Shown here in pieces: positions 13,937-63,893 of a stretch of 64,000 bases of DNA. The stretch lies in contig CAIRJF010000029.1 in assembly GCA_903878805.1 (NCBI GenBank), positions 1 through 64,000 of the forward strand. Direction: 5' to 3'. Origin of the DNA: an uncultured Verrucomicrobia subdivision 3 bacterium (lineage in GTDB: Bacteria > Verrucomicrobiota > Verrucomicrobiia > Limisphaerales > UBA11358). The notes under the pieces are model-generated. The model did no database searches, was not told the DNA's origin, and saw nothing but the letters and a program-made list of their open reading frames with translations. A program made the translations under genes and the position numbers. Within the stretch, counting starts at the first letter, position 1, and each line of letters opens with the position of its first letter.

Positions 13937-14356
13937 ATGAATGTTATACCTCCAAAAATAAAACACACAAAATCTAGATTACCAAGCGCTTTTTTAATTG
14001 GAGTAATTTTAGTCATTGCAGGTCTGATTTATCTTTTTGATCCGACGAAGAACAGCTTTTACCCAGAGTGTCAATTTCACCGACTTACAGGTTTGAATTG
14101 CCCAAGTTGTGGTGCGACGCGCGCAATCTTTGCCCTTCTCCATTGGAAAATTATTGCTGCACTACATGACAATGCTTTATTTGTAATAACTATAATTTTA
14201 ATGATATTTCGTGCCATTTATTTGTTTTGTGTGGCTAACCGAATCGAAATAATGCAGAAATTTGTTTCAGTGAATGCTTTTCGATGGTTTGCAATCGTTG
14301 CAGTAATTTTTACAGTTTTAAGAAATTTGCCGGCATTAAGTTTTTTGTCACCCTAA
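13937..14356 (+). CDS. DUF2752 domain membrane protein
   Basis: YPECQFHRLTGLNCPSCGATRAIFALLHWKIIAALHDN is the DUF2752 CPxCGxTRA signature. Confidence 0.8.
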   Translation: MNVIPPKIKHTKSRLPSAFLIGVILVIAGLIYLFDPTKNSFYPECQFHRLTGLNCPSCGATRAIFALLHWKIIAALHDNALFVITIILMIFRAIYLFCVANRIEIMQKFVSVNAFRWFAIVAVIFTVLRNLPALSFLSP

Positions 14357-14393
14357 TCGTCTTTAGTCCAAATTTTATTTCAAGATAAATCAA

Positions 14394-16319
14394 ATGTTCA
14401 CTTATCCTAAAAAATATGACGTGATTGTAATTGGTGCAGGTCATGCTGGAGTTGAAGCAGCACTGGCTGCCGCTAGGATGGGATGTGAAACATTATTATT
14501 AACTATAAATGTAGATACAATAGGCCAAATGTCATGCAATCCAGCAATTGGAGGCTTAGCCAAAGGGCATCTAGTAAGAGAAATTGACGCGCTTGGCGGT
14601 GAAATGGGCAAAGTTACGGATATGTGTGGGATTCAGTATCGAATGTTAAACCGGAAAAGAGGCCCTTCGGTTTGGGCTCCAAGAGCACAATGCGACAAAA
14701 AAGCATACCAAAATAGGCTAAAATGGATTTGCGAGTCTCAATTTAACTTGGATGTAAAACAAGGCCAGTCTGTAAAAATAATTGAAAAAAACAACATCGC
14801 CTGCGGTGTTGAAACAATTTTAGGTGTAAAATATCTCGGCACAGCGATTATTATTACGACTGGAACATTTTTGCGAGGGTTAATGCATATCGGCTCTAAT
14901 CAGCAGTCTGGTGGCAGAGCTGGAGACGCTGCATCGATGAGTTTATCATCTTCATTACAAGAGATAGGGATTAAATTGGGCCGATTGAAAACCGGAACAC
15001 CGCCAAGGCTGTTAAAAAAATCAATCGATTTTAAAAAAACGCAAATCCAATCAGGAGAAGAACCGGTTCCATATTTCACATATTGGAAAGATGATTTGTT
15101 CCACATGGAACAACCCATATCAAGCATAGTCAATAAGAAAAATAGGCAAAAATCTGAATCAAAATATCCGCCCAGTTCTACACTTGCTAGAATAAATGGC
15201 CAATTGGAATGCCATATTACGTTTACAACTGGCAAAACAGCGGAAATAATCAAGAAAAATTTGCACAAGTCACCGATGTATTCTGGTATAATTGAAGGTA
15301 TTGGTCCAAGATATTGTCCTTCGATAGAAGATAAAATCGTCAAATTTTCTGACAAAGAGCGTCATCAGATTTTTCTTGAGCCTGAGGGAATTGAAACGGA
15401 TGAAATTTACGTAAATGGATTTTCAACCAGTTTGCCTTATGAAGTGCAAATCGAAATGGTGCAATCTATTATCGGCTGTGAAAACGCTGAAATAATGCGT
15501 CCTGCTTATGCCGTTGAGTATGATTTTGCGTTTCCAACCCAGTTATACCCTTCTCTTGAAACGAAGGTATGCAAAAACTTATACCTTGCAGGTCAAATAA
15601 ATGGAACGTCTGGATATGAGGAGGCTGGGGCGCAAGGTATAATGGCTGGCATAAACGCCGCTAGACGTGTTCAAAATAAAAATCCAATAATTTTAGGTAG
15701 AGACCAAGCTTACATCGGTGTTTTGATTGACGATCTTGTTACAAAAGGAACTACAGAACCATATCGGATGTTTACGTCACGGGCAGAATATAGGCTATTG
15801 TTGCGACAGGATAACGCAGATTTAAGATTGTCTAAAATAGGCTATGAAGTCGGACTTCTTCCAAGTCGCAACTTTCTGAATTTTTCCCAAAAAGAATTAT
15901 TGATAAATCAGGAGATTAAGCGTTTGTGCTCAAATTATACAAATGGAAATTCACTCGCAAAAATTTTGTCCAGACCTGAATTTTCATATGATGATTTGCC
16001 CAATAAAGACACCTCATTAAGCGAAGAGGTGGTCAGGCAGGTAGAGGTTCTTATTAAATATAACGGCTATATAAATCGGCAGGAGATTGAAGTAAACCGG
16101 GTAAAAAATTTAGATGACAAGATTATACCAGAAAAATTTAATTTTGAAACTGTCCCAAGCCTGCGAATCGAGGCCCGTCAAAAATTGGCGAAAATTCGCC
16201 CTCGAACAATCGGACAAGCTAGCCGCATTTCAGGCGTTTCACCTGCCGACATTAGCATTTTACTTATTTGGCTCAAACGCGGTGCAGAAAAACACGCTGA
16301 AAATTCCTGCGATGGTTAA
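14394..16319 (+). CDS. mnmG: tRNA uridine-5-carboxymethylaminomethyl(34) synthesis enzyme MnmG
   Basis: YDVIVIGAGHAGVEAALAAARMGCETLLLTIN, SCNPAIGGLAKGHLVREIDALGGEMGKVTD, LKTGTPPRL, YLAGQINGTSGYEEAGAQGIMAGINAA. Confidence 0.95.
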   Translation: MFTYPKKYDVIVIGAGHAGVEAALAAARMGCETLLLTINVDTIGQMSCNPAIGGLAKGHLVREIDALGGEMGKVTDMCGIQYRMLNRKRGPSVWAPRAQCDKKAYQNRLKWICESQFNLDVKQGQSVKIIEKNNIACGVETILGVKYLGTAIIITTGTFLRGLMHIGSNQQSGGRAGDAASMSLSSSLQEIGIKLGRLKTGTPPRLLKKSIDFKKTQIQSGEEPVPYFTYWKDDLFHMEQPISSIVNKKNRQKSESKYPPSSTLARINGQLECHITFTTGKTAEIIKKNLHKSPMYSGIIEGIGPRYCPSIEDKIVKFSDKERHQIFLEPEGIETDEIYVNGFSTSLPYEVQIEMVQSIIGCENAEIMRPAYAVEYDFAFPTQLYPSLETKVCKNLYLAGQINGTSGYEEAGAQGIMAGINAARRVQNKNPIILGRDQAYIGVLIDDLVTKGTTEPYRMFTSRAEYRLLLRQDNADLRLSKIGYEVGLLPSRNFLNFSQKELLINQEIKRLCSNYTNGNSLAKILSRPEFSYDDLPNKDTSLSEEVVRQVEVLIKYNGYINRQEIEVNRVKNLDDKIIPEKFNFETVPSLRIEARQKLAKIRPRTIGQASRISGVSPADISILLIWLKRGAEKHAENSCDG

Positions 16320-60234: not shown

Positions 60235-62331
60235 TCAGGCGCGAATTTCCGGCGCGCGGCGGCTGACTTGAAACACCGCGAGACAAACTTGCGCCGTCGC
60301 CGGATCATTCAAACAAAGTGCGCCTTCGCGGATGCGCGGCAGCGGCTCGCCTTCGAGTTGCAGCGGGAATTTTTCCGCTAACATTTGCGCGTAAGCCGGA
60401 AAATTTTCAAAACCTTCCGCCCGCAACTGCGCCGCGTTCACGAGTCGGAACGAGCCGAAACTATTTTGAAAAGTTTGCCGCATCAATTCCACCAGCACGC
60501 GGCCCATCGTGTAACGCGGATTGATTTCGACGACAGGTTTCAATTTGACCGTGCCGTTTTCAGCGCGATAAACAAAGGCGTCAATGCCGATTGGTCCGGT
60601 GAAATCGATTTTTCGTAATTCAATTTCAAGCGCCGCAAAAACTTCGCCGTAAAATTCTAGCAACCGGTTGGAAATGTCCGCCGGTTCGCGAAATAGTGAA
60701 ACAATTTTGGCCGGAATTCGTTTGTGGTGATGCGATTCGGCAAAGTTGGCGACGAATTGGCCACGCGCGTCGCACTGCAAGCCAGTGTAACCGCACAGTT
60801 TCAAACCATTCGCCGTCATTTCGAGTTGGGCAGAAAAATCCAGATCGCGTTCCAACCACGGCTCGACGACCAATTCGCGATTTTGCGCGAACTTATTTTC
60901 CAGCCAGCGGAGTTGTGGTGGCAAAATTTCCGGTTCAAACAGCCGCATCGCGTTACTGCCGGCGACGCCGAAGGCTTCCTTCACGACGATTTTGTGATGG
61001 CCGCGCGCACGGATTTTGGCAATCGCGGCGAATGCTTCTTCAACTGAATTTACCGCCACGCCGACTTCGTTTTCACCGCAAAGCCAAACTTGTTCCTGCA
61101 ATTTTGACGAGATGATTTGCCGCAGAAAATTGGCGCTCCAGGTTTTGGAATAAAGTTGAGCAATTTTTGGGTTGAATCGTTTTTCGTCCGCGCGTTTTTC
61201 GCCGGTGACACTGGCGAATATGGGTTTTAATAATTCATAGCTGTCCGGTCCCCACGCCCACGGACGCAGGCTGCCGAGTTTGCGATTTTTTAAATCGCCG
61301 ACATTTTTTGTTTCCACAAATTCCGGCAACGGAAAACCGGCGGACTTGACGCGGCTCAAAAATTCGACGGATGGTTTTTGACTCGTCAGCACGATGTCAT
61401 CTTGCCGACATAAAAACTGCGGCAGATTTTCTAAATCGCGCGCGAGCTGTGCCTGATGTTTGGTGGGATTAAAAGTTTTGCCCTCGGCGATGCGACCTTC
61501 GGCGAATGGATTGAAAATAAAAACGCTCGGTGTGCGGCCTTTGGATTGCGAATAGACATTGATTTCGGCGATGAATTGCGCGTCGAATCCGGCGGCACGG
61601 CGACCTTCGACGTTCAGCGAAAAGCCTTTGGCCCGCTGCGGCGAGAGCGGAAATTTCAGCACGCGGCAGAAAGCGTCCCAGTCGTTTTCGCCCGGATTTT
61701 TCCAGCGGCGAAACCATTTCAAGCCGTAGGCGACATGACCAATTTCATCGCGATAAATTTTTCCGAGCAGATCGGAAGTCTCATTATCGCCAATGTTGGC
61801 AAAGCTTTTCGCGAAATGGCCGGCAAAGTCGAGATTTGCCTGCTCGAACGTCAGGCACAAGCTGGAGACGTAATCAATCGGATGTTCCATCGGCGAGACG
61901 CAACGCCAAAAGTAGCCGCTGACGGGCAGTTCGCCGAATTCGATGCCGCAACTTTTCATGCGCTCGATGTAGAGGCGCGTGTGTTCCTGCTCGTCCTTGA
62001 GTGTGCGAAAAACGCCCTGGCGAAAGGCGGCAGGTGCATCGGGAAATTTCAACAGCACGAGCGCCATGAGTTCGGTGGCGAGGAGTTCGTGGTTGCCGAA
62101 AAAATGGAGCAGCTTGCCGCGCTCGGATTTTTTTTCGAGCTGGTGTAGGCCAGGAAATTCGCTTTTGCCGGCGGCGTGCGGTTTGAAAATCAAATTTGCC
62201 GGGCGGCTGGGCGCGTCCGGCGTGACGAGCGCGATGCCGGGACGTTCGTCGGTAATGGAATCGGGCGCGCGAAGTTTTTCTTCGAGCGAGGTGGCGAACA
62301 AAACTTGTTCGGCAAATTCACGGAGTTCCAT
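60235..62331 (-). CDS. fusion: N-terminal DUF455 ferritin-like (diiron-type) domain and C-terminal ATP-grasp-like domain
   Basis: N-term HELLATELMALVLLKFPDAPAAFRQGVFRTLKDEQEHTRLYIERM...EQANLDFAGHFAKSF...YRDEIGHVAYGLKWFRRW; C-term KIVVKEAFGVAGSNAMRL, LVVEPWLERDLDFSAQLEM, IGIDAFVYR...LKPVVEINPRYTMGRVLVEL. Confidence 0.82.
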   Translation of the reverse strand: MELREFAEQVLFATSLEEKLRAPDSITDERPGIALVTPDAPSRPANLIFKPHAAGKSEFPGLHQLEKKSERGKLLHFFGNHELLATELMALVLLKFPDAPAAFRQGVFRTLKDEQEHTRLYIERMKSCGIEFGELPVSGYFWRCVSPMEHPIDYVSSLCLTFEQANLDFAGHFAKSFANIGDNETSDLLGKIYRDEIGHVAYGLKWFRRWKNPGENDWDAFCRVLKFPLSPQRAKGFSLNVEGRRAAGFDAQFIAEINVYSQSKGRTPSVFIFNPFAEGRIAEGKTFNPTKHQAQLARDLENLPQFLCRQDDIVLTSQKPSVEFLSRVKSAGFPLPEFVETKNVGDLKNRKLGSLRPWAWGPDSYELLKPIFASVTGEKRADEKRFNPKIAQLYSKTWSANFLRQIISSKLQEQVWLCGENEVGVAVNSVEEAFAAIAKIRARGHHKIVVKEAFGVAGSNAMRLFEPEILPPQLRWLENKFAQNRELVVEPWLERDLDFSAQLEMTANGLKLCGYTGLQCDARGQFVANFAESHHHKRIPAKIVSLFREPADISNRLLEFYGEVFAALEIELRKIDFTGPIGIDAFVYRAENGTVKLKPVVEINPRYTMGRVLVELMRQTFQNSFGSFRLVNAAQLRAEGFENFPAYAQMLAEKFPLQLEGEPLPRIREGALCLNDPATAQVCLAVFQVSRRAPEIRA

Positions 62332-62423: not shown

Positions 62424-63893
62424 TCAAGCAGCATCTTTGGCTTCCAGCCTCTGCCAGACGAGGCCGTAGAGGGCGATGAGGACGAAGCACACGAGCGGCA
62501 CGACGAAGCCGGCACGCATCGAGCTGGTATCTGCGAGGTGACCCATGAACGGTGCGGCGATAGCGCCGCCAACGATAGACATGACAATCATCGATGAACC
62601 CAGCTTGGTGTAGTCTCCGAGGCCGCGGATGCCGAGTGCGAAAATGGTCGGGAACATCACAGACATGAAGAAGAACGTGCCAAACATCGCATACAGACCG
62701 AGCTTGCCGCCGCCCATGCAGATGGCCGTGAGCGCGATATTGATGGCCGCGTAGGCTGCGAGAACAAAATGCGGTTTGAACTGGCTGATGATGAAGCTGC
62801 CGCACAGACGCCCGGACATGAACAGCACGAAACCAATGGCACCAAGCCAGTGCGCCGCCTGCAATTTGGTTACGCCAGGATCGTTTTCCAAAATGTAGTT
62901 CACGCAGAAACTGAAAATGCCCGTTTGCGCCGCGACGTAAAGGAACTGTGTGCCGATGCCGAGCGTGAAATGTTTGCGCCGGAACAAATCCCAATTTTTG
63001 GAGACCAACAGGAATCCGCCGATGTAAGCGGCCACGAGCAGACCGTATTTGGCCGGGTCAAACAACGCCGCCGGCATGTTTAGCAGCGCCCAGATCAGGC
63101 CCAAAATCGGTGCGATGAAGAAATAGAGCAGACCGCAGACAATCGCCAAACTAACGGCAATGCCCGCCAGTTGACCGCCGGAAGGCTTGAGGGAATTTTT
63201 CTGCTCGGCGGATTTTTTACTTTCGTCCTCGGCGTGCAAATCCGGCACTTTGGACACGGCGAAGATGACCAGCAAGATGGCTACAAAGATGCCGATGCCC
63301 AGATAGGGCGTGGACAAACCGGCATTGGCATTCGCACCCTCGCCGCTGCCGAAGACGAATTGTCCGCCGACAATCGGGCCGAGAATCCAGCCGCCGCCGT
63401 TGATGGTCTGGGCGATGTTGATGCGCGTCGCGCCATGCTCCGGCGCGCCTAGCACCGTGGTGTAAGGATTGGCGATGGTTTCCAAACAGGTCATGCCCGC
63501 CGCGATGACGAACAAGCCAAGCAGAAACGCCCAGTATTGACCGATGCCGACGGCGGGAATAAACCAGAACGCGCCCGCTGCAATGAGTGACAAACCGACC
63601 AGGATGCCGCCCTTATAACCAAACTTCCGCGCGATGAGCCCGGCGGGAATCGCCATCAGGAAGTAAGCGAGATAGTTGGCCGATTGCACGAGGCCGGACT
63701 GCTGCTTGTTGATGTGCAGTGAATCCTGAAAATGTTTATTCAGAATGTCGATCATCCCGTTGCAAAAGCCCCAGAGCAGAAACAATGAGGTGACTAACGC
63801 AAAGGTGACGAAGAGGTTCTGGCCGTCGGCCGTTTTGAAAAGCCCGCCGCCCGAGGTGCCCGATGATTTTGGAGATTGAACTGGTGTAATCAT
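62424..63893 (-). CDS. fucP: MFS sugar transporter, FucP-like (L-fucose/glucose/galactose permease)
   Basis: FVTFALVTSLFLLWGFCNGMIDILNKHFQDSLHINKQQSGLVQSANYLAYFLMAIPAGLIARKFGYKGGILVGLSLIAAGAFWF, CLETIANPYTTVLG. Confidence 0.92.
   Translation of the reverse strand: MITPVQSPKSSGTSGGGLFKTADGQNLFVTFALVTSLFLLWGFCNGMIDILNKHFQDSLHINKQQSGLVQSANYLAYFLMAIPAGLIARKFGYKGGILVGLSLIAAGAFWFIPAVGIGQYWAFLLGLFVIAAGMTCLETIANPYTTVLGAPEHGATRINIAQTINGGGWILGPIVGGQFVFGSGEGANANAGLSTPYLGIGIFVAILLVIFAVSKVPDLHAEDESKKSAEQKNSLKPSGGQLAGIAVSLAIVCGLLYFFIAPILGLIWALLNMPAALFDPAKYGLLVAAYIGGFLLVSKNWDLFRRKHFTLGIGTQFLYVAAQTGIFSFCVNYILENDPGVTKLQAAHWLGAIGFVLFMSGRLCGSFIISQFKPHFVLAAYAAINIALTAICMGGGKLGLYAMFGTFFFMSVMFPTIFALGIRGLGDYTKLGSSMIVMSIVGGAIAAPFMGHLADTSSMRAGFVVPLVCFVLIALYGLVWQRLEAKDAA

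Follow-up and report, generated by a model that had tools for sequence, protein, structure and literature searches.

A single open reading frame of 698 aa with an ATG start, at positions 60235..62331 on the minus strand of the window (the whole stretch of 64,000 nucleotides analysed here), joins a DUF455 ferritin-like domain to a C-terminal ATP-grasp ligase module. The earlier note had proposed such a fusion within one protein, and we found the ORF in place with all six of the motifs quoted there. The fusion is not due to chance, since the protein recurs in 31 of 59 close relatives, dN/dS is 0.10–0.14 for both domains, and both active sites are conserved in 93 members. The architecture is new and built from known superfamilies: neither domain is new, only their combination. 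In a literature search, DUF455 and ATP-grasp appeared together in no paper, most subscription journals lying outside the search, so that an earlier notice is possible; among the titles returned for COG2833 and HI_0077, nothing was evidently functional. On balance, we think it somewhat probable that the protein is an enzyme with two active sites, in which the ATP-grasp ligase would make an amide while the diiron domain would oxidise the product or a substrate as an optional tailoring step.

Domain architecture and predicted folds

The features of the gene and of its upstream neighbour are as follows.

60235..62331, minus strand: whole gene, 698 aa (ORF; PF04305 match; a single conserved ORF in relatives, too)
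61570..62226, minus strand: DUF455 ferritin-like (predicted diiron) domain, aa 36–254 (Pfam PF04305)
61456..61569, minus strand: junction or linker, aa 255–292, with an S-x-G-R-[TS]-P motif and an F-[NH] motif (alignments)
60262..61527, minus strand: predicted pre-ATP-grasp plus ATP-grasp ligase module, aa 269–690 (Foldseek against the PDB; residue invariance)
62424..63893, minus strand: MFS fucose-permease-like gene (TIGR00885, 296 bits, cut-off 280)

The gene is present in one copy in the window genome, and a second DUF455 is absent elsewhere in that genome. The DUF455 assignment made in the earlier note is well founded, as PF04305 matches aa 36–254 with E=3.5e-44 and 151.7 bits against a gathering cut-off of 34.3. 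The predicted metal ligands are E82, E114xxH117, E163 and E196xxH199, and the same E, ExxH, E, ExxH pattern aligns in four stand-alone DUF455 proteins (from Sinorhizobium, Sphingomonas, Azospirillum and Geobacillus), which share the domain and all six predicted ligands but are unfused, only ~275–380 aa long and 27–31% identical where aligned. A separate AlphaFold2 model of aa 1–265 (pLDDT 91.3, pTM 0.91) consists of four long helices arranged as a ferritin-like bundle. When this model was compared with the PDB using Foldseek, mostly ferritin-like proteins were retrieved as weak matches (E ~0.1–0.3), including the bacterioferritin 1nf6, 5ux1, a protein with aldehyde-deformylating oxygenase activity, and the tRNA-monooxygenase MiaE (6zma). 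The Foldseek probability to bacterioferritin and 5ux1 is 1.00, yet E is ~0.1. Since E is ~0.1 or more throughout, the model supports a ferritin-like fold class for the N-terminal half, but not a function.

As for the C-terminal half, zero Pfam and NCBIfam models scored above cut-off (the best was DUF3182, E=0.099), and the curated ATP-grasp models of both libraries also stayed below it, so that no named subfamily was assigned. The full-length AlphaFold2 model, built from an alignment of 26 relatives, has a mean pLDDT of 84.5 and a pTM of 0.65; because of the latter value, the placement of the two domains relative to each other is uncertain. With this model, ATP-grasp enzymes alone are found among the 50 Foldseek matches listed for the PDB. 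The best is 8ynd (E=7.6e-14), and the other top matches are 8ynq, 3wvq/3wvr (which we take to be PGM1), 7r8p/7r8q (SAOUHSC_02373) and BesA (8yi6), all of them peptide or amino-acid ligases, then PurK and biotin carboxylases. The proteins 8ynd, 3wvq/3wvr, 7r8q and BesA share the fold and the catalytic residue pattern with the window protein, but they are 11–14% identical to it, are separate proteins and have no diiron domain. The likeness is at the fold level only, as phmmer and hmmsearch against the PDB left 8ynd, PGM1 and BesA-type chains unmatched, and PDB searches with the single sequence or a close-family profile gave nothing useful. The best match of a broad ligase profile, 7r8p (E=0.0036), covers 78 positions only and would be too weak for transferring a substrate.

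The features described for the ATP-grasp superfamily, namely a linker Lys, a Lys on RAGNYA strand 2, an Asp and an ExN motif (PMC4431377), map to K396, K451, D584 and E602-I-N604, respectively. These four canonical catalytic features, together with the AlphaFold2 model and the Foldseek matches, uphold the earlier assignment of the C-terminal half, which extends from ~aa 268 to 690. Structure prediction, suggested in the earlier note as a check, thus returned an ATP-grasp fold for the full model and a long-helix bundle for aa 1–265.

Conservation and spread of the fusion

Among 93 distinct fused members, there is no variation in the six predicted metal ligands E82, E114, H117, E163, E196 and H199 (one member is gapped at E82, E114 and H117). 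The same is true of K451, E490, D498, S500, D584, E602, N604 and R606, and likewise of K396. Homologues in which the metal or Mg/ATP residues are missing, which the earlier note had named as one way to refute its reading, were looked for in this set, and both groups of residues proved invariant. Under a random-column model, the probability of finding all six ligands invariant is 3e-5 and that for six chosen ATP-grasp residues is 1e-8, both values being a rough guide, as the model treats E, H and K like any average residue and leaves aside that the positions were chosen with the alignment already in view. Besides the ligands, N80, H81, E87, Q115, T161, Q164, N166 and D168 are invariant in the 93 fused members; N80, H81, Q115, T161, Q164 and N166 are additions of the fusion family as compared to stand-alone DUF455 proteins. 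Both halves are under purifying selection: between the window protein and three relatives, dN/dS is 0.10–0.14 for DUF455 and 0.11–0.12 for the ligase, and another fused pair gives 0.09 and 0.16, respectively.

Within the order, a model of the whole protein matches 128 of 293 genomes, a count that includes a minority of contig-edge fragments or DUF455-less genes; for the better assemblies the figure is 79 of 153. Across the phylum, a model of the ligase matches 14 of the 289 genomes sampled, every frame being 648–727 aa long, and 13 of those 14 (the window's own set aside) align across the DUF455 half as well. This spread over genomes of the order and of the phylum points to a fusion that is old within the phylum. 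Nearly all of the best 80 named loci are labelled as Verrucomicrobia or Limisphaerales MAGs. Some of the 80 carry implausible species labels (e.g., L072, L077, L078, L081 and L090), and the proteins of MAGs labelled Akkermansia muciniphila or Klebsiella pneumoniae fall among Limisphaerales- or Pedosphaera-labelled sequences on the tree; judging from these sequences, the two species labels look wrong.

The fusion was found in none of the plasmid records (other phyla), the protein has no match in phages, and PADLOC assigns it to no defence system. In some relatives tblastn returned the protein in pieces; a split gene was rejected, as the pieces share one open frame, in which variable insertions follow aa 345 and aa 411. 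A natural fission into N- and C-terminal genes was considered for one genome (G018), where the two parts lie on two contigs; the N-terminal piece reaches the end of its locus, so that a contig break is likelier. A separate group of ~440–550-aa proteins from other Verrucomicrobiota (L164, L174, L190 and others) shows a weak DUF455 match at ~aa 255–410, with 52 bits in L164, 40 bits in L174 and a sub-threshold score in L190, while the N-terminal half of this group is without assignment.

Orthologues and homologues without the DUF455 domain

Seven genomes of the order (L180–L186: G391, G450, G430, G419, G517, G047 and G525) keep the ligase and lack the DUF455 core. Their frames are 449–520 aa long with all ligase residues intact in the seven members, and they resume at 'VFVFNPFAEGY' or near variants. 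Some of these genes retain a DUF455 stub of 25–36 residues: L183 starts MELRDLAEPVLFATTLDDKLQSPAVLVFNPFAEGY, i.e., the first ~25 residues of the fused protein joined straight to the start of the ligase, the stub of L185 is more diverged, and L184 retains MELRE alone. L186 starts at a contig edge, and its N-terminus is possibly incomplete. Nowhere else in the seven genomes does PF04305 find a DUF455 above cut-off; in two of them it gives a weak, sub-threshold match to ~475-aa proteins of another kind.

The earlier note had also asked for a phylogeny of the fusion. In a ligase tree with a Bacteroidales outgroup, made with a quick method and SH-aLRT support only, the DUF455-less genes nest inside the fused clade, where the seven members occupy two places and the starred branches require two changes or more. 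This placement argues for at least two nested losses of the diiron domain. Assembly error is unlikely behind the group of six members, because it is found in four families; L184 is a single MAG. In two DUF455-less pairs the dN/dS of the ligase is 0.20 and 0.26, as compared to 0.10–0.16 elsewhere, so that the ligase is still constrained. Since these genomes keep it without the DUF455 core, the ligase must be of use by itself. The two predicted chemistries are indeed paired in one protein, as the earlier note had it, with both residue sets complete, but their coupling is not obligate.

That DUF455 can be lost with the ligase staying would also be expected if this half were a non-catalytic or regulatory module that senses iron or oxygen and gates the ligase. 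Iron binding by a ferritin-fold domain need not go with oxygenation of an organic substrate, and bacterioferritins are among the top weak Foldseek matches; nevertheless, the invariant N80, H81, E87, Q115, T161, Q164, N166 and D168 would hint at a site that is tuned or at a pocket for a substrate, and we regard a sensor as improbable. The naturally trimmed genes offer a ready comparison, in which full-length and diiron-less orthologues can reveal the role of the diiron domain.

Stand-alone homologues of the C-terminal half are present in Parabacteroides, Bacteroides, Phocaeicola, Prevotella and Streptomyces, with hhalign probabilities of 98.7% for the Parabacteroides protein and 98.8% for WP_310869115 of Streptomyces sp. 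BB1-1-1. At their N-termini ('YFNPGHE', 'IFNPEHD', 'LFNPEHD'), the Bacteroidales proteins align with ~aa 270–280 of the window protein, which places the fusion joint near aa 265; the start of the ligase at ~aa 268 matches the N-terminus of these homologues. The Bacteroidales 'hypothetical proteins' have the region from ~aa 269 in common with the window protein and keep K451, D498, D584, ExN and R606, but they are without DUF455, ~20% identical and carry Arg at the position of K396. Their annotated neighbourhoods contain no obvious pathway, and the plasmid-borne Bacteroidales copies are ligase only. Bacteroidales hosts are anaerobes, and their ligase-only state fits an extra step that depends on O2, as a correlation based on few records. 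The Streptomyces protein is homologous over the ligase and shares K396, K451, D584 and the ExN motif, but is unfused and has Gln at the position of E490. It adjoins radical SAM, acyl-carrier, condensation-domain and oxidoreductase genes in a plasmid cluster (L130:8936-24675) that looks biosynthetic; Gfo/Idh/MocA and phosphotransferase genes are also found there.

The earlier note had taken the protein for an uncharacterised biosynthetic or modification enzyme. Indeed, the searched libraries give no pathway for either half, the protein is unassigned in them, and we found no functional assignment for stand-alone DUF455 or for the fusion family. One amendment concerns the C-terminal half, which is a pre-ATP-grasp/ATP-grasp module with stand-alone homologues and so not new in itself.

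Proposed chemistry and gene neighbourhood

In the enzyme that we favour, which would stand alone and have two active sites, the C-terminal half would be a carboxylate-amine (amide-bond) ligase, with K396, K451, E490 and a Mg site formed by D584/E602-x-N604 binding ATP. The ligase would activate a carboxylate as an acyl-phosphate, which would then be attacked by an amine, and its substrates would probably be amino-acid-like. The metal of the DUF455 half, which we infer to be a diiron centre, would use O2 and hydroxylate, desaturate or otherwise oxidise the ligase product or one of the two substrates. We read this oxidation as optional tailoring, given that the ligase is retained where the predicted oxygenase is missing, and it is probably O2-dependent, as DUF455 has been lost with the ligase kept and stand-alone ligases occur in anaerobic Bacteroidales and in Streptomyces. 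An extension of this proposal, which we hold only tentatively, is that a single polypeptide would make and, at its ferritin-fold diiron site, oxidise an amide-linked metabolite, which would be a widespread and hitherto undescribed small molecule of Verrucomicrobiota; an unoxidised version of it would be made in the diiron-less lineages and in anaerobic Bacteroidales.

The pairing of an iron oxygenase with ATP-grasp enzymes, in which the earlier note saw a candidate for new biochemistry, has precedent in separate genes (PMC13185094; PMC12568646). The mbo pathway for mangotoxin uses a haem-oxygenase-like diiron enzyme, MboA, and the ATP-grasp enzymes MboC/MboD, and 1447 haem-oxygenase-like oxidases were counted near an ATP-grasp ligase (PMC13185094). 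As proposed here, a diiron oxidase and ATP-grasp ligases act in one amino-acid pathway; unlike here, the mangotoxin genes are separate and clustered, and the diiron fold is haem-oxygenase-like rather than ferritin-like (PMC13185094). In E-64 biosynthesis an iron oxygenase first makes the warhead, and an ATP-grasp enzyme follows (PMC12568646). In neither system is a ferritin-fold domain fused to the ATP-grasp enzyme.

The E-64 order of steps could hold for the window protein too: the diiron domain would make an oxidised (e.g., hydroxylated or desaturated) amino acid, and the ligase would be specific for that substrate. However, in the seven genomes that keep the ligase with DUF455 above cut-off absent, such an enzyme would be useless unless its specificity had shifted or another oxidase supplied the substrate. 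The somewhat higher dN/dS of the ligase in the DUF455-less lineages allows for a change in specificity, and we consider this reversed order unlikely, though a serious contender. The fusion gives DUF455, a ferritin-like family without assigned function, a physical link to predicted amide-bond chemistry. If the proposal is true, roughly one in two of the order's better-sequenced genomes carries a two-step enzyme that, having no surrounding gene cluster, would be overlooked by cluster-based metabolite searches.

Clustering of the flanking ORFs at ~90 loci gave no conserved neighbour, and hence no pointer to a pathway or substrate: the commonest family occurs at 11 loci in inconsistent positions, and immediate same-strand neighbours are common to at most 4 loci. 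An operon or pathway partner was rejected on these grounds. In the window genome the MFS gene lies 92 bp upstream on the same strand and is possibly co-transcribed, but it is not a conserved partner, as just 2 of 97 loci have it directly upstream. A TauE/SafE exporter gene found directly upstream on the same strand at four loci (L122, L123, L127 and L187) is lineage-specific, and miaA was likewise dismissed as a partner, since it lies directly downstream in three DUF455-less loci of one clade alone (L180–L182).

The miaA neighbour, the isolation of the gene and the presence of MiaE among the weak structural matches could also be taken to indicate modification of a macromolecule, such as tRNA or protein, by MiaE-like hydroxylation together with amino-acid ligation. 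We consider this very improbable: the restriction of miaA to loci that lack DUF455 is the opposite of what a MiaE-type enzyme would predict, and an RNA-binding domain was not found in the protein. No known structured RNA lies near the gene. Elsewhere in the window, mnmG (gidA; 14394..16319, plus strand) is located in a low-GC stretch (38% at 14001..16000 vs. ~55% for most of the window) and is preceded by DUF4190 and DUF2752 genes.
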